From: Spirochaetes bacterium RIFOXYC1_FULL_54_7
GTDB taxonomy: Bacteria > Spirochaetota > Spirochaetia > Treponematales > UBA12059
DNA length: 11,556 nt
Reading direction: 5' to 3'
NCBI GenBank assembly: GCA_001830645.1
Contig: MIBM01000102.1
Coordinates: forward strand, 1,487-13,042
The position numbers were made by a program, and so were the translations under genes. Within the stretch, counting starts at the first letter, position 1; each line of letters opens with the position of its first letter. This document shows positions 2,645 through 11,556 of the stretch, one piece after another. The notes under the pieces were generated by a model. That model was given only the letters and a program-made list of their open reading frames with translations. It was not told where the DNA came from and made no database searches.

Positions 2645-2673
2645 AGTGTATCCGAATATCAAGGGTGTTTCAA
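2645..2673 (-). promoter_or_regulatory. Candidate sigma70 promoter for argS
   Basis: On the minus strand TTGAAA (2673-2668, five of six consensus positions) is followed after exactly 17 nt by TACACT (2650-2645, four of six). Transcription would start near 2638 and give a leader of about 85 nt to the argS ATG. The -35 element overlaps the ligA stop codon. The spacing is ideal, but the -10 is only fair, and read-through from ligA is also possible. Confidence 0.45.
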
Positions 2674-4616
2674 CGACCAGGAGCTTTGCCATCCAGGATA
2701 GCCAGGAACTCATCCTCCCCTATCACCGGAATGCCCAGTTCCATGGCCTTGCGGTTCTTGCCGGAACCCGATTTTGGATCATTGGTAACCAGATAGGACA
2801 GGCCTTTTGCAACCGAAGAACGGGTTGATCCCCCAAGGGCTTTTACCCTGGCCTCGGCCATGGGTCGCTTCATGGAAAGCAGTTCACCGGTAAAACAAAA
2901 ACTCTTGCCGCTCAGAGGACCAGCCGAAGCGTCGGCAGAACGTATGCTCAGGGCACCAGTGGCCAGAACCTTGTCCATGGCAGTTGCCAGCTCTTTCAGG
3001 CCGTCAGAGATGACCCTGGCGGTAATCTCCCCAAAGCCGTCGATACCGGACAGTACTTCGGACGGAGCGTTTCGCAACTTCTCCAAGGTATCAAATCCCG
3101 CTGCCGCCGCCTTTTCCACCATAAGCACACCTATGCCTTCTATATCAAAACCAGCAATGAAATCCGCCAGGGATACAGTGCTCCTGCTCCTTAGGTTCTG
3201 GATGACCTTCCCGGCACTGGTAGCCCCCATACGCTCATACGACGCCAGTTCTTCAGGCTCCAGGGTGTAAAGATCGGCAATGGAAACCACCCTGCCGGAA
3301 TCGAACAAGCGCCTGAGGATAGCGGGACCGAACTCCATTATGTTCAGCACCGACAGCCACTTTTCAAGACGGTGGATGGCTTTTTTCGGACAGTCGCGGT
3401 TTGGGCAATACAGCCTGGTGCCTTCGTCGATCAGGACAGCTCCGCATGAACAGGCCTGGGGGGCCAGAATTTCACGAGAATCAGGCAGGTCTTCTACCAG
3501 CCCCTCTATCTTGGGTATGATCTCGCCGCGCTTAACCACGATCACCCGACTGCCTATGCGAAGTCCCATACCCCGTATCGTATTGGTATTGGCCAGGTTG
3601 GCCCTCTGCACGGTGGTTCCGGCAATCCTGACGGGCTGAACAATGGCTATTGGAGTGAAAGTGGCACCTGATTCGCTCCACTCGACATCGATGAGGGTGC
3701 TCACCGCCTGTTCAAGGGGGAATTTGAAGGCAATCTGCCGCTCCGGCCTGGCCCTGCGCATGTCTTCCAAGTCTACCCGCCGCCCCTTGACCACCAGTCC
3801 ATCTATATCATGGTCCATGGCATCCCGACCGGCTACCACCCGGGCACGGTAATCAACAACCTCGTAGGGCTCGGTGAAAACTTCGTAGGCAACCGTCCTG
3901 AAACCTGTGGCAGCAAGCCATTCCATCTTCGTTATTTCATCATCGAAAGGCGGTAGAATCCGGGGGCCTTCGAAAAGATCCAGAGTGCCAGGGCCAGGCC
4001 GGTCAAAAGCGCCCCGAGGCGCCACATCATAGCAGAGTACCTCGAGACGCTCGGCTCCGATCCCGTCCTTGCGCTTCATGATGCCATTGGCTGCATTACG
4101 GCAATTGGCCTTGTCCGGAAAATAGCGTGCCAGGGTCTGCCTGGTCATCAGTACTTCACCACGCGCCGCCCCGCTCCAGGGCTGAGGCAAGCGACCTGGC
4201 ACACCGGCCATGCGCTTTGCATTCGGTGTAATATCATCCCCGACAAGACCGTCACCCCTGGTGACAGCCCGCACAAGCATCCCCTCTTCGTACTGCAGTT
4301 CTATGCTTGCGCCATCCATCTTCAGTTCGGCTACATATTCCGGGTGGCGGATCTTGGCACACCAAGCCAGGAACTCCTCAGGATCCGCAGCCTTGGCCTG
4401 ACTGCCCATGGGCAACACATGGGCAGCCTTCGGAAAGCCGTCAACTGCGTCCTGTCCTACCCTGACCAGGATTGGACTCCCGGGCCTAAGCTTGGTCAGC
4501 TCATCCCACAGGGCATCAAACTCGGCATCACTGATTGCCGGGTGGCCGTTGTAGTACAGATCCTGGTGTTGACCTATCAGTGATTCCAGTTCGTCTGCCC
4601 TGCTGTCAATATCCAT
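2670..4616 (-). CDS. ligA: NAD-dependent DNA ligase LigA (divergent)
   Basis: This 648-residue NAD+-dependent ligase seals nicks during replication and repair. Domains in order: an N-terminal NMN-binding Ia domain (YYNGHPAISDAEFDAL, 21-36); the adenylation domain with catalytic lysine K99 in KMDG, then RGDGLVGDD (120-128) and ARGEVLM (151-157); the OB fold around 305-370 (VKRGEIIPK, 361-369); a four-cysteine zinc finger (C389, C391, C404, C409); helix-hairpin-helix repeats around 440-550; and a BRCT domain from about 566 to 645 (GKSFCFTGEL). Two features are unusual: the segment after FPK reads LPMGSQAKA where most LigA have a PMLSLDN-like motif, and the zinc finger spacing is C-x1-C-x12-C-x4-C, shorter than the usual C-x2-C-x14-C-x5-C. 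An AAGGGA ribosome site precedes ATG 4616 and overlaps the stop of the upstream gene 11 bp away, so the two are co-transcribed and probably coupled. Confidence 0.95.
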   Translation of the reverse strand: MDIDSRADELESLIGQHQDLYYNGHPAISDAEFDALWDELTKLRPGSPILVRVGQDAVDGFPKAAHVLPMGSQAKAADPEEFLAWCAKIRHPEYVAELKMDGASIELQYEEGMLVRAVTRGDGLVGDDITPNAKRMAGVPGRLPQPWSGAARGEVLMTRQTLARYFPDKANCRNAANGIMKRKDGIGAERLEVLCYDVAPRGAFDRPGPGTLDLFEGPRILPPFDDEITKMEWLAATGFRTVAYEVFTEPYEVVDYRARVVAGRDAMDHDIDGLVVKGRRVDLEDMRRARPERQIAFKFPLEQAVSTLIDVEWSESGATFTPIAIVQPVRIAGTTVQRANLANTNTIRGMGLRIGSRVIVVKRGEIIPKIEGLVEDLPDSREILAPQACSCGAVLIDEGTRLYCPNRDCPKKAIHRLEKWLSVLNIMEFGPAILRRLFDSGRVVSIADLYTLEPEELASYERMGATSAGKVIQNLRSRSTVSLADFIAGFDIEGIGVLMVEKAAAAGFDTLEKLRNAPSEVLSGIDGFGEITARVISDGLKELATAMDKVLATGALSIRSADASAGPLSGKSFCFTGELLSMKRPMAEARVKALGGSTRSSVAKGLSYLVTNDPKSGSGKNRKAMELGIPVIGEDEFLAILDGKAPGR

Positions 4617-4627
4617 GGATCGTCCCT

Positions 4628-6754
4628 TCAGCCTCCGATTTTAAGAAACGCATCCTTGAAGCCAAGAGACCGCACCCGGAGCAAGGCCATGCCGCTTTCA
4701 TCCCTGCCCAGAGGCCCCACAAAAATCTTCCAGATCCTGGCGCTGGAACCTGCTGGTGTTTCCAGCACTATCACATAGTCCATACGGAGTACCGATACAG
4801 TCTCGGCCGCAACCGCTTCGGTACGGTAAGCCCCAACCTGTATGTAATGCCTGCCCTTTTCAAGGGAACCGGTGGCCATGGCCGGCCTGACTGACGCAGC
4901 AGGAGAAACCGGTGCCACCGTTGCAGGAGCAGGAACCCCTGCAGTGCTGGCTGGAGCCTGTTCAATAGGAGCGGTGTCTTCTACCTCCGGTGCTTGCTCT
5001 GCTACAACAGGAGCATCCATGACCGGCGGCCTCAGATCGGTTGGTTCGAGTACAACAATCACCTCTCCAGGGGCATCTACTTCCACCTCGGGACTATCCT
5101 CCGCCACCGGGGTGTCATCACCTACCACAGCAGGGGCCGTACGCTCCGCGATTACGGGAGCCTCGGATGCGATATCAGCTTCGGCAAGTTCAACATCAAC
5201 ATCGGATGCCAACGTTCCCGGAGCCGCGGGATCCAGGACCTCTGCTTGGTCAACTGCTTCAACCTCAGGAGCGGCCAAGGCTATCCTGGTTTCAGCTGCA
5301 CCAAAAGATGGTGTCTCCAGGGCAACAGCAGAGGGCATCCCGGTATAAGGGAAGATGACTTCCCCCTCTGCCAGACTGGTCGCTGGAACCAGCTGGACCG
5401 GTTCCGTCAGCCGGGCGAGCACGACATCGGGTATCTCGTCGGCTTCCAGTTCCGGCCAGGCCAGTGAGGCCAAGGCAACACCGCCACGCCGAGGTGGCAT
5501 CAGGAGTTCGTGGGCCACCACTCTATCCGCCGCTCCATCCGCTGCCATGGCACCAGGCTCGGCCAGAGCAAAGGATCCAGCTTCTCCGGTAAGAGATGGA
5601 GAACCAAGTTCTTCCGCCGTTGCGCCTTCCTCTGTCTCGACTTCTGGTTCCACCAGAGCCAGCCCGGTATCAGTATCGCTGGCGGTCGGAGTCTCAAGGG
5701 GCAGAGCGACGAAACCTTCAGGACCAGGCGCCTGAGGTTCGACAAGACTCAGTTGTATAGGTTCCGGAACCAATTGCGGCGTCCTGGACCTGTCCAGCAC
5801 ATCAGGTAGCGCTGCCGGAGCCTCGAAGCGTTTTGGCACCGGGGAGGGGCTTACCCGGATCGGTGTCTCATCCGGAACAGGCAGGGTCATGGCCAGTATT
5901 TCTGGACCTGACACTTCAATTGGAGGAGCTTCGGTTGGCACCGGTTCGTTTTCGATCGGCAAGGGTGCAACGATAGCCAAGGCAGAGGGAGCCTCGGGTT
6001 CAGGCAATTCAGGTAGTACCACAGTCCGAACCGGTTTTGGTTTGCCACCGTTGATGGCCTCGGGCCGTTCAGCAGCAGTAACCCGGGGAGCCTCGGGACT
6101 CGGCACAGGAACCGTTTCAGCTTCGGGAGTCGCCGGTTCGGGTCTGACAAGGTCCTGCACCATCTGGGGTCCCTCTTCCAAGGGCTCAATCGGTAGCGGG
6201 GCAACCACAGGCGGAATGGGTTCGATGACTTCAGGTGCTGCTTCAGGTGTGACTTCAACGGTTTCAGTACCAAGTTCAGGGGCAGTTTCGGTCTCGACAG
6301 GAGTCTCGACAGGAGTCTCGACAATATCATAGCCCATCCGTTCCAGTTCTTCGGCTGCGAGCAGACGTGGATTGAAGTCGGCATCCAAGGCTTTCCTGGA
6401 ACCCGAGGATGGTGCAAGGGATGACACACTCCGCGGTTCTACAGCCCTGACTCTGGCAATCTTGCCCTGGCGTAGACCAAGAGCCTCTGCCGCCTCGGCT
6501 GACACCATCATGAACACCCCGGGATTATCCAGACCGCGCACGATTATAACCGTTACGGTTTTCCCGGTTTCAAGATTGGTCACCTCGACGGCAGTATTGC
6601 GGGGGAAGGAATTGCAGGCTGCGAAATATCCACCGGGTGGAAAGTCGCCGTAGGAACCCATCATCGCACTACCTTCCCATGATGAAGCCGACGCCAGCAG
6701 GGCGACGGCCAATATGGAAACAGACAGGGCCATGATTCTCTTCATTCTATCCAT
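4628..6754 (-). CDS. Exported RlpA-like protein with DPBB domain, long acidic Pro-rich linker and SPOR domain
   Basis: This 708-residue protein starts with a signal peptide (MDRMKRIMALSVSILAVALL, likely cleaved near residue 24; no lipobox Cys). Residues about 43-105 form a double-psi beta-barrel like RlpA: FPRNTAVEVTNLETGKTVTV followed by VSAEAAEALGL. Residues about 145-625 are a low-complexity linker rich in Pro, Glu, Ala and Val, surely extended and acidic, with a small VETP repeat near 145-153 and a repeated APLPIE (185-190, 263-268). Residues about 633-708 are a SPOR domain (GRHYIQVGAYRTEAVA ... WKIFVGPLG), which binds stem-peptide-free septal peptidoglycan. True RlpA is a lytic transglycosylase using His and Asp; the aligned residues here are Cys47 and Val72, so catalysis is doubtful and a structural or recruiting role at the division site in the periplasm is more likely. 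A GGAGG site 5 nt from ATG 6754 fixes the start. Confidence 0.85.
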   Translation of the reverse strand: MDRMKRIMALSVSILAVALLASASSWEGSAMMGSYGDFPPGGYFAACNSFPRNTAVEVTNLETGKTVTVIIVRGLDNPGVFMMVSAEAAEALGLRQGKIARVRAVEPRSVSSLAPSSGSRKALDADFNPRLLAAEELERMGYDIVETPVETPVETETAPELGTETVEVTPEAAPEVIEPIPPVVAPLPIEPLEEGPQMVQDLVRPEPATPEAETVPVPSPEAPRVTAAERPEAINGGKPKPVRTVVLPELPEPEAPSALAIVAPLPIENEPVPTEAPPIEVSGPEILAMTLPVPDETPIRVSPSPVPKRFEAPAALPDVLDRSRTPQLVPEPIQLSLVEPQAPGPEGFVALPLETPTASDTDTGLALVEPEVETEEGATAEELGSPSLTGEAGSFALAEPGAMAADGAADRVVAHELLMPPRRGGVALASLAWPELEADEIPDVVLARLTEPVQLVPATSLAEGEVIFPYTGMPSAVALETPSFGAAETRIALAAPEVEAVDQAEVLDPAAPGTLASDVDVELAEADIASEAPVIAERTAPAVVGDDTPVAEDSPEVEVDAPGEVIVVLEPTDLRPPVMDAPVVAEQAPEVEDTAPIEQAPASTAGVPAPATVAPVSPAASVRPAMATGSLEKGRHYIQVGAYRTEAVAAETVSVLRMDYVIVLETPAGSSARIWKIFVGPLGRDESGMALLRVRSLGFKDAFLKIGG
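6291..6323 (-). repeat. 12-bp tandem repeat inside the RlpA-like linker
   Basis: The plus strand reads gtctcgacagga twice, followed by nine bases of a third copy (2.75 units, perfectly matching). In the minus-strand protein it encodes repeated V-E-T-P. Perfect copies of a unit divisible by three suggest recent slippage that lengthens or shortens the linker without breaking the frame. Confidence 0.9.
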
Positions 6755-7407: not shown

Positions 7408-7959
7408 ATGGATTATTACGCCGTACAGGTGTGGACAGGCCACGAAAGCGACTATGCCGAACGCCTCGCCAAAGACTCCCGTTGCCAGACCAGTATCGCT
7501 GTGCCAAAGCGGACCATGCAGATACGAAAGCTCGGCAAGATCAAAAAGGAAGAACGTCCTGTTTTCCCAGGCTATGTATTCATCCCGATACCGGAAGGCA
7601 CCATCGATCCAGCCCTGCGCTGGATCATCCGCTCCACCAAATACTTTGTACGCCTGCTCCCTTCCACAGGGGATCCGAAACCCATACAGGAAAAGGACCG
7701 TCGCATACTTGCCCACTTCATGTCCTTTGGCAAAGTGGCCGATACATCGAAGGTCGTTTTCGATGAAAACGAGCGGATAGTCGTCATCGAAGGCCCCCTG
7801 AAAGGACTGGAAGGATCAATCGTCAAGATCAACAAAAGGAAGGGTCGCGCCAAGGTCAGCCTTGATATGTGCGAATCTTCCTTCCTGATAGATCTGTCCT
7901 TCGAGATCCTCGACCGTTCATCGAAAGGATCCGGCAGCGAACATGGGCAACAGCCTTGA
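7408..7959 (+). CDS. NusG-paralogue antiterminator (LoaP/RfaH/UpxY type)
   Basis: This 183-residue protein has the NusG layout: an N-terminal NGN domain (DYYAVQVWTGHESDYAERL at 2-20; PVFPGYVFIPI at 51-61) that would bind the RNA polymerase clamp, and a C-terminal KOW domain (about 120-155, VIEGPLKGLEGSIVKINKRKG). A short Ser/Gly tail follows. It is not the housekeeping nusG, which normally sits with secE and the rplK/rplA genes; here it is the first gene of a nucleotide-sugar operon. Specialised NusG paralogues in that position (RfaH targets, UpxY of Bacteroides capsule loci, LoaP, reported in Firmicutes, Actinobacteria and spirochaetes) stop premature termination in their own long operon. 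I saw no RfaH ops element upstream. Its stop overlaps the next gene by 17 bp. The exact subfamily is uncertain, so I give no symbol. Confidence 0.85.
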   Translation: MDYYAVQVWTGHESDYAERLAKDSRCQTSIAVPKRTMQIRKLGKIKKEERPVFPGYVFIPIPEGTIDPALRWIIRSTKYFVRLLPSTGDPKPIQEKDRRILAHFMSFGKVADTSKVVFDENERIVVIEGPLKGLEGSIVKINKRKGRAKVSLDMCESSFLIDLSFEILDRSSKGSGSEHGQQP

Positions 7960-9430
7960 AAACCCCAGAATCTATATCCTCGGTGCCGGTTTTGCCGGCA
8001 TTTCGATTGCCAAGGAAATAAGGCAAAAAGGCGTCTTCGGTACCATCGTAGCCTTCCTGGACGACAATCCGGAAAAGGTCGGCCGGAGCATAGAAGGTGT
8101 GCCCGTCCTGGGTCCAATCCGGGATGTGGTAAACCTCCTGGCCCGCACACCTGCAGACGAAGCCATCATTGCCATCCCGAGCGCTTCCCGCGAACTGATC
8201 CGGGATCTGTATTTCCTCCTGAAGCGGGCCGGTTTTGCGCGTATCCGTATACTGCCAAGCGTGGCCCAGATAGTCGAGGGCGATGCCCACCTTGTGCAGA
8301 CCAGGGAGATAGATCCCCAGGATCTACTCGGGCGTAGCCCTGTAGCCATAGGCCTCAAGGAGAGCATCCGGTGGCTGCGTGGCCGACGGGTACTCATCAC
8401 CGGAGCTGGTGGCTCGATAGGTTCCGAGCTTGCCAGACAGCTCCTGTCTGCAGGAGTCGAGCGCCTCTATCTTTTTGGCCATGGCGAGAATTCGATTTAC
8501 CAGATAGACAGGGAGCTGCGGATACTCCAGGCCGGCGGCGTCGGGGTTTCCACCGCCATTGTCCCGGTCATAGGCGAATTGAAGGACGCCCAGTATGTAA
8601 CCCACATACTCAAGCGGCTGAAGGCCGATGTAGTCTTCCATACTGCCGCATACAAGCACGTCCCCCTGATGGAAGCCAACACAGTGGCCGCCATGGAGAA
8701 CAACGTATTCGGCACCCTGAATCTGTGCCAGGCGAGCCTGGAGGCCGGTGTTCGCCGCTTCGTGCTGGTCAGCACCGACAAGGCTGTGGAGCCCTTGTGC
8801 ACCTACGGAGCCTCCAAGCACCTTTCGGAGCGCATCGTCATGAACGCCCAGTCAAAAGCAGGGCGCGATTGCCACTACATGGTGGTACGGTTCGGCAATG
8901 TCCTGGGCTCAAGGGGATCCATACTACCCCTGTTCATGAAGCAGGTAGCCCAGGGCGGGCCGGTTACGGTGACCGATCCAGCCGCCCGCCGCTATTTCAT
9001 GACCATACCCGAGGCCTGTTCCCTGGTGCTGAAGACTGGCGGTGTAGGTGGCGGCGGTGAATCCTACCTTCTGGATATGGGAGAAGCCATCTACATACGT
9101 GAACTCGCGGAGCAGGTCATCCGCTTTTCAGGCTTCGAACCAGACAAAGACATCCAGATCGATTACATAGGACTGCGTGCTGGAGAACGTCTTGAGGAAA
9201 AACTGGTGGCCGACAACGAAACCCTGGAAGCCACTGACTTTCCACGGATAAACCGTCTGGTCCGCAAAGACGCAGATCCCGAGCTCCCTGCCATACTGGC
9301 GGAACTGAAGCCTGCCTGCACCTATGACCCAGCCAGGCCAGAAGCATACCGGAACCGCCGCTACCTGCGGGAGACCCTGCGTACCTGGATCCCGAGTGTA
9401 GAGGAAAAAACCGATGAACCGGAATACTGA
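7943..9430 (+). CDS. Soluble nucleotide-sugar 4,6-dehydratase (CapD/PglF/FlaA1 family)
   Basis: This 495-residue protein has two Rossmann-type domains. Residues about 8-130 resemble the cytoplasmic N-terminal domain of CapD/WbpM/PglF (YILGAGFAGISIA, then FLDDNPEKVGRSIEGVPVLG). Residues about 147-440 are an extended short-chain dehydrogenase: NAD motif TGAGGSIGSEL (153-163), HTAAYKHVPLME (233-244), STDKAVEP (277-284), and Tyr288-Gly-Ala-Ser-Lys292. The family removes water from UDP-GlcNAc to give a UDP-4-keto-6-deoxy sugar. Two things are odd: the four N-terminal membrane helices typical of long family members are absent, so it should be cytosolic, and the position usually held by Met in long members (MGASK) is Tyr, as in the short FlaA1/PseB enzymes. 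The start overlaps the NusG paralogue by 17 bp and has only a weak AAAGGA 13 nt upstream, consistent with translational coupling. The exact sugar product is not determined. Confidence 0.88.
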   Translation: MGNSLENPRIYILGAGFAGISIAKEIRQKGVFGTIVAFLDDNPEKVGRSIEGVPVLGPIRDVVNLLARTPADEAIIAIPSASRELIRDLYFLLKRAGFARIRILPSVAQIVEGDAHLVQTREIDPQDLLGRSPVAIGLKESIRWLRGRRVLITGAGGSIGSELARQLLSAGVERLYLFGHGENSIYQIDRELRILQAGGVGVSTAIVPVIGELKDAQYVTHILKRLKADVVFHTAAYKHVPLMEANTVAAMENNVFGTLNLCQASLEAGVRRFVLVSTDKAVEPLCTYGASKHLSERIVMNAQSKAGRDCHYMVVRFGNVLGSRGSILPLFMKQVAQGGPVTVTDPAARRYFMTIPEACSLVLKTGGVGGGGESYLLDMGEAIYIRELAEQVIRFSGFEPDKDIQIDYIGLRAGERLEEKLVADNETLEATDFPRINRLVRKDADPELPAILAELKPACTYDPARPEAYRNRRYLRETLRTWIPSVEEKTDEPEY

Positions 9431-10583
9431 TTTCCTGCCCTTTGCCCGGCCATCCATAGGACCGGAGGAGGAAGAAGCCGTCCTGCGCATCATGCGTTCC
9501 GGCTGGCTGACAACCGGCTCAGAGGCCTTGGCTTTCGAGAAGGAATTTGCTGCATATGTCGGAGTTCCTTTTGCCCTGGCTGTCAATTCGGCTACCAGTG
9601 GACTCCACCTGGCCCTTGAGGCCGCAGGCATAGGCAAGGACGACGTGGTGATAACCAGCCCCTACACCTTCACCTCCACCGCCGCGGTGGTCCGCCATCT
9701 GGGGGCCGAGCTGGCCTTCAGCGACACCGCCCCCGGATCATACAACCTGGATCCAGACCAACTGCAACGCCTTCTGGCAGGTACCCGCAACTGCCGCGCC
9801 ATAATTCCCGTACATATCGGGGGGCTTCCCTGCGACATGGATGCCATCACAACCCTCGGCAAACGCTATGGTTGTACGGTGGTTGAAGACGCAGCCCACG
9901 CCTTTCCGGTCATGACCTCACAGGGTTTTGCCGGGACCCTGGGTGAGCTGGGAGTCTATTCGTTCTATGCCACCAAGACCATAACCACCGGGGAGGGCGG
10001 CATGGTGGTAACCGCCAACGAAAAGCTGGCCAGACGCATGAGCCTCATGAGGATGCACGGTATCGACCGTGCAGTCTGGGACCGTTATACTGCGAGGAAG
10101 GCATCCTGGCGCTACGAAGTGAGCGAAGCAGGTTTCAAGTACAACCTGCCTGATATCCTTGCTGCCATCGGGCGGGTGCAATTGCGTCGGGCGGAGACAT
10201 TCATGGAACAGAGGAAAAGGACCGCCGCCATCTATAACAAAGCCTTTTCCCGAACACCTGGCCTTGGCCTGCCTCCGGAAGCCCCGAACCATGCCTGGCA
10301 CCTGTATTCCCTACGCGTGGATCCAGCACTCACTGGCATCGATAGGGACACCCTTATAGAAACCCTGGCCGACAAGGGCATAGGGGCATCGATGCACTTC
10401 ATTCCCCTGCACCTCATGCCCTATTATGCAAAGCGGTATTCCCTGGCTCCCGGAGATTTCCCGAACGCAGTTGCGATGTATGAAGCTACCCTGAGCCTAC
10501 CCATCTGGCAGGGAATGACAGAGGATGATGCCCGTCGGGTAACCGATGCCGTCCTGGAAGCAGTCGGATCCGGCCGGAAATGA
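9414..10583 (+). CDS. DegT/DnrJ/EryC1/StrS-family PLP sugar aminotransferase
   Basis: This 389-residue fold-type I PLP enzyme transfers an amino group, usually from glutamate, to a keto sugar nucleotide. Landmarks: RSGWLTTG (28-35); VNSATSGLHLAL (57-68), which positions the PLP phosphate; TSPYTFTSTA (81-90); EDAAHAF (158-164) with Asp159 facing the PLP ring nitrogen; SFYATKTITTGEGGMV (183-198) with the Schiff-base lysine K188; KYNLPDILAAIGRVQL (242-257); and HFIPLHLMPYY near the C-terminus. Length is typical and all key residues are present. Its start overlaps the dehydratase by 17 bp, with GAGG 9 nt before the ATG. Placed after a 4,6-dehydratase, it most likely aminates C4 of the 4-keto product, as PglE does in bacillosamine synthesis. 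Substrate is inferred from context only. Confidence 0.92.
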   Translation: MNRNTDFLPFARPSIGPEEEEAVLRIMRSGWLTTGSEALAFEKEFAAYVGVPFALAVNSATSGLHLALEAAGIGKDDVVITSPYTFTSTAAVVRHLGAELAFSDTAPGSYNLDPDQLQRLLAGTRNCRAIIPVHIGGLPCDMDAITTLGKRYGCTVVEDAAHAFPVMTSQGFAGTLGELGVYSFYATKTITTGEGGMVVTANEKLARRMSLMRMHGIDRAVWDRYTARKASWRYEVSEAGFKYNLPDILAAIGRVQLRRAETFMEQRKRTAAIYNKAFSRTPGLGLPPEAPNHAWHLYSLRVDPALTGIDRDTLIETLADKGIGASMHFIPLHLMPYYAKRYSLAPGDFPNAVAMYEATLSLPIWQGMTEDDARRVTDAVLEAVGSGRK

Positions 10584-11556
10584 ACAATCCCGACATGATC
10601 GGCGGCAAACCGGTTCCGGATCACGCCCTCCACGTGGCAACCATACGATCTCCGGTATCAAAAGGCGTCATCAAGTCCATCAACATACCCCACCTGCCTC
10701 GGGACTACCGAAGCTTTACCGCTGAGGATTTTCCGGGCTCTCCGGATATCGAGTTGTTCGGCGTTTCCATCCCGATCCTGGCACCAGGACGCGTCTCCTA
10801 TCGGGGAGAGCCCATTGCCCTTATCGCCGGACCAGACAAGCAACGGGTAGCCGAAGCGGTCAGGCTTACCCGGCTGGTAATAGACGAGGAACCAGCAGTC
10901 TTCGGGTTTGAAACCTGGGATTCTTCCCGGATAGCCGCAAGCAGCCTCCTGGAAGGCGGCGATGTCGATGAAGCCTTGGGCAAGGCCGAATTGGTGGTTG
11001 AAAGGGATTTCAGACTGGGTGCCCATTATCATTATTACCCTGAAACGCACCGGGCTTCCGCTGTCTTTGACTATGACAAGCTGAAGATCCACTCTGCCAC
11101 CCAATGGCCTTTCCAGGTGAGACAGGCTGTGGCACGGTCCCTTGCTGTCAAGGAAGATGAAGTGATCGTGCTTCCGGTAATGACAGGCCCCCATCTGGAC
11201 GGCAAGCTTTGGTATCCATCCATGATAGCCTGCCAGGCTGCCCTGGTATCCATGCTGTGTGGCAAGCCTGCCGTCCTGATCCTCTCGCGCTTCGAAGACT
11301 TCATGTACACGACAAAAAGAGCGCCTGTCCTGGCATCCTACCGTATCGGTATGAATGCCGAAGGACAGCTGCTGGGCATGGATGTACGGATAGCCATCAA
11401 TGTCGGAGCCCGCAGTCCACTAGCCGAAGAACTGGCGGCACGGTCGGCCCTTCTGGCCTCTGGGGTGTATTCATGCCCGAATTTCAGGGTAAGCGCCAGG
11501 TCGATAAACACCAATCTGCCTCCTATGGACGCTTATGCCGGCATGGGCTCATCCAC
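10580..11556 (+). CDS. Xanthine dehydrogenase / aldehyde oxidase large-subunit-like protein (partial, C-terminus outside window)
   Basis: I translated from ATG 10580, which shares ATGA with the aminotransferase stop; the frame is open for 325 codons to the window edge. The protein follows the molybdenum hydroxylase large subunit: HVATIRSPVSKGVIKSI (18-34), AEDFPG (48-53), GRVSYRGEPIALIAG (70-84), GGDVDEALGKAELVVERDF (126-144), SATQWPFQVRQAVAR (172-186), CGKPAVLILSRFEDFM (227-242), and TNLPPMDAYAGMGS (311-324). It lacks the usual N-terminal segment before the first of these. The glycine-rich GGGFGGK cofactor loop reads TGPHLDGK (202-209), and the conserved AYRGFG reads AYAGMG (319-324), losing the Arg and Phe. 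Known members hydroxylate purines, aldehydes or N-heterocycles with molybdopterin; whether this one binds it is doubtful. No strong ribosome site was found, so coupling to the upstream gene is likely. Family assignment is good; function is unknown. Confidence 0.8.
   Translation, partial: MNNPDMIGGKPVPDHALHVATIRSPVSKGVIKSINIPHLPRDYRSFTAEDFPGSPDIELFGVSIPILAPGRVSYRGEPIALIAGPDKQRVAEAVRLTRLVIDEEPAVFGFETWDSSRIAASSLLEGGDVDEALGKAELVVERDFRLGAHYHYYPETHRASAVFDYDKLKIHSATQWPFQVRQAVARSLAVKEDEVIVLPVMTGPHLDGKLWYPSMIACQAALVSMLCGKPAVLILSRFEDFMYTTKRAPVLASYRIGMNAEGQLLGMDVRIAINVGARSPLAEELAARSALLASGVYSCPNFRVSARSINTNLPPMDAYAGMGSS

Follow-up and report, generated by a model that had tools for sequence, protein, structure and literature searches.

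A xanthine-dehydrogenase-like complex of Spirochaetia that has probably given up its molybdenum cofactor

The xanthine oxidase family (PF01315/PF02738/PF20256 with PF00111/PF01799 and PF00941) includes xanthine dehydrogenase, CO dehydrogenase, and the nicotinate and quinoline oxidoreductases. The spirochaete complex described here has the fold of this family across the whole large subunit (L) and a three-subunit gene set (L-S-M) with 2Fe-2S and FAD motifs in most members. It differs in that residues of the pterin site are lost in L and S, the Glu is replaced in about half of the proteins, and the complex occurs in genomes in which no genes for synthesis of the molybdenum cofactor (Moco) were found. 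A second known system, the PseB-PseC flagellin sugar pathway, is resembled by the CapD-like and DegT genes upstream of L, but both upstream proteins score beneath the NCBIfam cut-offs, and to our knowledge L-S-M is no part of that pathway. Among the literature matches listed, there was no description of a Moco-free xanthine dehydrogenase of spirochaetes.

The window, i.e. the whole analysed stretch of 11,556 nucleotides, covers bases 1487-13042 of a 13193-base contig from Spirochaetes bacterium RIFOXYC1_FULL_54_7, the genome of which is 72.6% complete. It contains an operon with the order LoaP, CapD-like, DegT, and L, in which neighbouring frames of the ORF list overlap by 4 to 17 bases. The features are as follows:

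2670-4616, minus strand: LigA gene (NCBIfam 470.3 bits, above its cut-off)
4628-6754, minus strand: 708-aa protein rich in Pro, Glu, Val, and Ala (no Pfam match at 0.001)
7408-7959, plus strand: LoaP antiterminator gene, first gene of the operon (ORF; NCBIfam LoaP 148.7 bits, cut-off 125)
7943-9430, plus strand: CapD/PseB-like nucleotide-sugar 4,6-dehydratase (Polysacc_synt_2, E 1e-104; motif STDKAVEPLCTYGASK with Tyr)
9414-10583, plus strand: DegT-family, PseC-like sugar aminotransferase with PLP-type Lys (DegT, E 4e-114; SFYATKTITTGEGG)
10580-11556, plus strand, 3' end off the contig: L, predicted large subunit of a Mo-free xanthine-dehydrogenase-like complex (ORF, Pfam, relatives)
10802-10813, plus strand: RGEP block of L (sequence)
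within 10952-10975, plus strand: GDVDEA block of L (sequence)
11099-11107, plus strand: TQW of L (sequence and row comparison)
11183-11206, plus strand: altered pterin loop TGPHLDGK, in which T precedes GPHLDGK; GG.FG.K in ordinary enzymes (alignment)
11285-11302, plus strand: SRFEDF block of L (sequence)
11528-11548, plus strand: DAYAGMG with the altered Arg motif AYAGMG; A.RGFG in ordinary enzymes (alignment)

Against the NCBIfam PseB model, the CapD-like protein scores 167.2 bits (equivalog cut-off 407.75), and the DegT-family protein reaches 355 bits against PseC (cut-off 423.5). LoaP of a relative (L057) scores 148 bits against the LoaP model (cut-off 125). In other families of the class, too, L-S-M has DNA ligase and dnaE genes in its vicinity, which points to an old shared gene order.

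The L frame begins at an ATG (10580) and shares the four bases ATGA (10580-10583) with the DegT-family gene, as a sequence-only reading of this DNA had noted. That reading had also assigned L to the large subunit of xanthine dehydrogenase, which is borne out by the RGEP, GDVDEA, TQW, and SRFEDF blocks and by a Pfam MoCoBD_1 match (148.7 bits, E 2e-43), and had described two cofactor glycine motifs as altered. Alignment with 21 ordinary paralogues from the same and related genomes confirmed both changes, GPHLDGK and AYAGMG. They are more than chance, because relatives carry changes at these positions, which ordinary enzymes keep intact. The contig stops 151 bases beyond the window, so the end of the gene, the C-terminal Glu, and downstream genes are not visible there, and relatives, in which complete L has about 690 aa, were used to complete it. 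As a query, the partial L of the window gave no confirmed relative in a genome-contig search and none among phage records.

Matches to the L protein of the window were found in 57 of 58 genomes searched, its own included. L is usually followed by a protein of about 160 aa with a Fer2_2 (2Fe-2S) domain, S, and then by one of about 280 aa with FAD_binding_5, M. We compared gene order at 110 loci, 57 from this relatives set and 53 hand-picked from the class (5 of the latter again from family f3 of the same order), and counted genes as adjacent if they were on the same strand with frames at most 1500 bases apart; for G030, G036, G044, and G049, a divergent LoaP-linked copy replaced the top-scoring match. 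L-S-M is adjacent in 104 loci, CapD-DegT-L-S-M in 76, and LoaP-CapD-DegT-L-S-M in 58. Among the six misses, G000, G013, G019, G041, and G122 are on contigs that end close by, and in G042, neither S nor M was found next to L; since the contigs of G047 and G122 end near L, absent neighbours there are weak evidence. The five-gene set spans 29 families among the class-level loci. At 1e-20, an L profile matches 254 of 297 class genomes, ordinary enzymes counted in, and among 20 listed class genomes without a match, 13 belong to one small-genome family (f24). Outside the class, the six phylum-level loci that were opened all have ordinary motifs.

To describe the altered site, 107 altered L rows were set against 28 canonical (ordinary) rows, with the partial G000, G013, and G041 left out; the compared positions in L and S are those that we take to touch the pterin in bovine xanthine oxidase, with bovine residue numbers mapped through the alignment. 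None of four key pterin-site positions is kept in 85 of the altered rows, and three to four are kept in the canonical ones. In the pterin loop, the second Gly is present in 28/28 ordinary versus 6/107 altered rows, the Phe in 28/28 versus 7/107, and the fourth Gly in 28/28 versus 9/107; the Arg of A.RGFG drops from 27/28 to 3/107, the Gly of GQG from 96% to 6%, and the Gln aligned with bovine Gln1194 from 100% to 2%. The steepest losses are these motif positions and a few further glycines, and Gly304 (alignment-reference numbering) is at 100% in both sets. The matching pterin-site Gln of S is gone in 104 of 106 proteins, one of these being a gap. These residues (GG.FG loop, Arg, GQG, and the Gln of S) are thus lost in nearly all rows of the family and kept in the canonical ones. 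Judged by these alignments, both L and S have lost their pterin-site residues, and the complex keeps its fold, most of its 2Fe-2S cysteines, and its FAD motifs. The cofactor site is the part of the definition of the xanthine oxidase family from which the complex departs. Two genomes, G109 and G157 (L169 and L170), have lost the pterin loop but keep MGQG in L and the Gln in S, and look like intermediates that hold part of the cofactor site.

The catalytic Glu, described as the base in xanthine oxidase (PMC3624778), shows a more mixed pattern. Its position is occupied by E in 55, D in 21, and other residues in 31 of the altered rows, and within the order, 37 of 54 rows have E and 12 have D. As E or D is often kept, part of the family could still carry out some Mo chemistry.

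The altered L proteins also have features of their own. Twenty columns are conserved among them and rare in the ordinary set. The Gln of TQ is common to both sets (70% and 79%), and the Trp that follows it is present in 94% of the 107 altered and 0% of the 28 canonical rows. Likewise, the Trp of KLW reaches 77% versus 0%, and an Arg-Phe pair 91% and 82% versus 0% and 4%. Within the rebuilt loop, HLD is most frequent in the order (H and L in 34/57 rows, D in 40/57). Such newly conserved residues suggest that the protein was reused rather than left to decay. In a tree calculated without the motif columns, a single branch (SH-aLRT 99) separates all altered rows from the rest, and the loss of the cofactor site therefore most likely happened once; this is a quick tree with some unsure long branches, and it includes a hand-picked 30 of the 57 rows from the relatives set. 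The neighbours of the altered clade are seven ordinary spirochaete enzymes (C_G081b, C_G167, C_G291, D_G118b, D_G156, D_G296a, and D_G296b), six of which have S and M genes within the fetched stretch. Unlike the altered complex, they retain GG.FG.K, RGFG, and GQG, and the fetched stretches yielded neither CapD nor DegT; similar enzymes occur in the six phylum-level loci.

Taken together, L is probably the large subunit of a conserved L-S-M complex with a xanthine oxidase fold that gave up the Mo cofactor and was then refitted. In the mechanism we propose, the cofactor would have been given up once, early in the class Spirochaetia. The vacated cavity may bind another ligand, with HLDGKLW standing in the place of the pterin loop and TQW beside the retained Gln, and FAD and two 2Fe-2S clusters would carry electrons to or from this cavity in most lineages. 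In flagellated lineages, the complex would mostly sit in an operon with two amino-sugar genes, its core task being independent of them. A fuller proposal, which we put forward tentatively, is that this is a class-wide, vertically inherited Mo-free enzyme whose emptied cavity houses a new active site supplied by FAD and 2Fe-2S groups, and that it carries out a basic spirochaete reaction retained even by a treponeme genome of 1.14 Mb. If the cofactor site is truly gone, a metalloenzyme scaffold minus its metal cofactor is still selected across a bacterial class, and the intermediates G109 and G157 still hold part of that site.

For the rebuilt complex, we lean towards a redox function, regard a non-redox one as conceivable but doubtful, and give a hidden cofactor little chance. 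A redox role is most likely in most lineages and less sure where Fe-S cysteines are lost. All eight cysteines are retained in 89 of 106 S subunits, and the FAD motifs are largely retained, which suggests that the redox groups matter in most species. This argues against a scaffold, regulator, or transferase in which S and M are structural only, a reading we consider unlikely, although several Fe-S cysteines are lost from S in G032, G083, G194, G333, G058, and G061 with the proteins kept, and the Glu is lost in other lineages.

The position of L in a sugar operon had suggested a dedicated role in a surface sugar pathway. One version of this idea places L in the CapD-DegT (PseB/PseC-like) pathway as an enzyme that might form the unusual acyl group of a flagellin nonulosonate glycan; in T. 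denticola, this glycan reportedly has a Pse-type structure with an acyl group. The CapD-DegT-L-S-M order at 76 of the 110 loci is in keeping with it. So is the distribution of flagellin: among 77 genomes with an altered L locus (of 80 searched), CapD-DegT lies beside L in 49/58 flagellin-positive versus 0/19 flagellin-negative genomes. Strong NeuB matches (E <1e-40, the analyst's choice) accompany 36/38 loci with CapD-DegT beside L versus 5/15 class-level loci without, a co-occurrence that is not strict, and they also track flagellin (53/55 positive versus 1/11 negative); the states of MoaC, NeuB, and flagellin were entered by hand from search tables. In addition, T. denticola flagellins are described as carrying a 450.2-Da glycan that is required for filament assembly (PMC9481697). 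On the tree, however, flagellin state changes three times and CapD-DegT adjacency 10 times, so that the flagellin link amounts to three independent events (sign test p 0.25-0.5), and a Fisher p of 1e-11 overstates it. L is kept in 19/19 and L-S-M in 18/19 flagellin-negative genomes without CapD-DegT beside L, compared with L-S-M in 57/58 flagellin-positive genomes, and nine of the 58 flagellin-positive genomes have L without adjacent CapD-DegT. The flagellin-negative pair G033/G052 shows dN/dS of 0.043-0.058 for L, S, and M, with high dS. We dropped the dedicated sugar role because flagellin-less genomes without sugar genes beside L keep the complex, and we rate it as improbable. The sugar link is real but separable, and the complex is probably not solely a sugar enzyme: CapD and DegT would serve the flagellin glycan known from T. 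denticola, and L-S-M would have its own task.

E1/E3-type deoxygenation by a DegT dehydratase and a flavin/Fe-S reductase was set aside as well, because Lys is present in 76 of 84 DegT motifs (7 others fall outside the pattern and 1 has His). Replacement of the PLP Lys by His occurs in E1-type dehydratases; a DegT-like gene with this change (SFYPPHHMTMGEGG) lies away from L in G029 (L050).

The refitted, Mo-free complex also has to be weighed against a divergent but otherwise ordinary molybdenum hydroxylase that uses other residues to bind Moco. Such an enzyme would account for the full L-S-M gene set, for the Glu in 55 of 107 altered rows, and for MoaC, which is present in 33 of the 58 genomes of the relatives set. 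On the other hand, 25 of the 58 genomes lack MoaC, 27 lack MoeA, and 25 lack MoaA, and none of the three was found in any of 12 nearly complete f3 relatives, all of which keep the complex; MoaC was found in G322, a further f3 genome from outside the relatives set. Ten of these 12 relatives have a single MoCoBD_1 domain, and G024 and G043 have two each. Of 83 altered rows in a tree, 45 belong to genomes without a MoaC match and 38 to genomes with one, MoaC being the gene searched at class level. Moco genes were not found in the window's own genome either, which contains ordinary paralogues; G033 and G052 hold such paralogues too, and in some genomes, these three among them, the lack of MoaC may reflect an assembly gap. 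The joint loss of pterin-site residues in two different subunits, and their retention by ordinary paralogues in related genomes, further oppose an ordinary hydroxylase, for which we see only a small chance. The earlier reading had proposed that a Glu together with FAD, 2Fe-2S, and Moco synthesis genes would indicate an ordinary enzyme. In relatives, FAD and 2Fe-2S genes do follow L and the Glu is often kept, and many of them would count as ordinary by this combination; it is indecisive, because the same complex, operon, and pterin-site losses occur in genomes with none of the three Moco genes. Its proposal of eroded cofactor motifs on a repurposed fold is supported by the pterin-site losses and with the conserved complex in those genomes.

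Two further genes were seen in genomes without MoaC, MoeA, or MoaA matches. The first is a second xanthine-dehydrogenase-like gene with GGSFGGK in the 99% complete G024 (L093:5019-7313; G024:C1:2145018-2147312), possibly an orphan molybdoenzyme. The second, in the complete genome G031 (L094; G031:C1:670690-671409), has a MoCoBD_1 match of 272.7 bits in a short 399-aa frame and was left out of the paralogue set.

In pairs of MoaC-less genomes, dN/dS is 0.04-0.19 for L, S, and M, next to 0.055-0.074 for CapD and 0.079-0.150 for DegT; these ranges come from nine pairs that share genomes, omit non-finite dS, and include many dS values >1. Such values indicate that the complex is kept by selection in genomes in which no Moco synthesis genes were found. 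A decaying relic carried in the operon is therefore highly improbable: the loss of motifs and some Fe-S cysteines, and an L that is less similar than CapD in some genome pairs (e.g., 60% vs 84% for G048/G051), are set against these dN/dS values, the new conserved residues, L-S-M adjacency in 104/110 loci, and presence in a 1.14-Mb genome. A complex without a cofactor site that is under strong selection, even where no Moco genes were found, probably has an undescribed job.

One of the 12 f3 relatives is G032, a single contig of 1,139,633 bases (1.14 Mb) that has CapD-DegT-L-S-M and gave no match to MoaC, MoeA, or MoaA. Its L has Thr at the Glu position, and its S keeps just four Cys of one cluster. 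The protein and its place beside L stay despite the Cys loss in the S subunits of G032, G083, G194, and G333 (L036, L164, L230, and L182). From its size and gene order, we infer that G032 is Treponema pallidum, so that the syphilis agent apparently carries the complex. A T. pallidum homologue next to cap5D/spsC-type genes had been mentioned in the sequence-only reading; the neighbourhood holds, with L beside CapD/DegT and none of the three Moco genes found, but the name given there, quinoline oxidoreductase, was not found for T. pallidum in a literature search. TPASS_0079 and TPASS_0081 of T. pallidum are described as predicted xanthine dehydrogenase, molybdoprotein- and FAD-binding, with no mention of a lost cofactor site in that description (PMC4403809). 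The gene order of G032 fits these two as L and M. Some proteins of the family bear the public name "xanthine dehydrogenase family protein molybdopterin-binding subunit", and such names invite wrong metabolic models for treponemes. The complex raises a testable question about genes in a syphilis-type genome.

In part of the order, a tetrapyrrole-methylase-family gene, with a weak match to the RsmI models below cut-off, and a PilZN3-domain gene lie downstream of M (e.g., L058:4701-5531 and 3855-4667).
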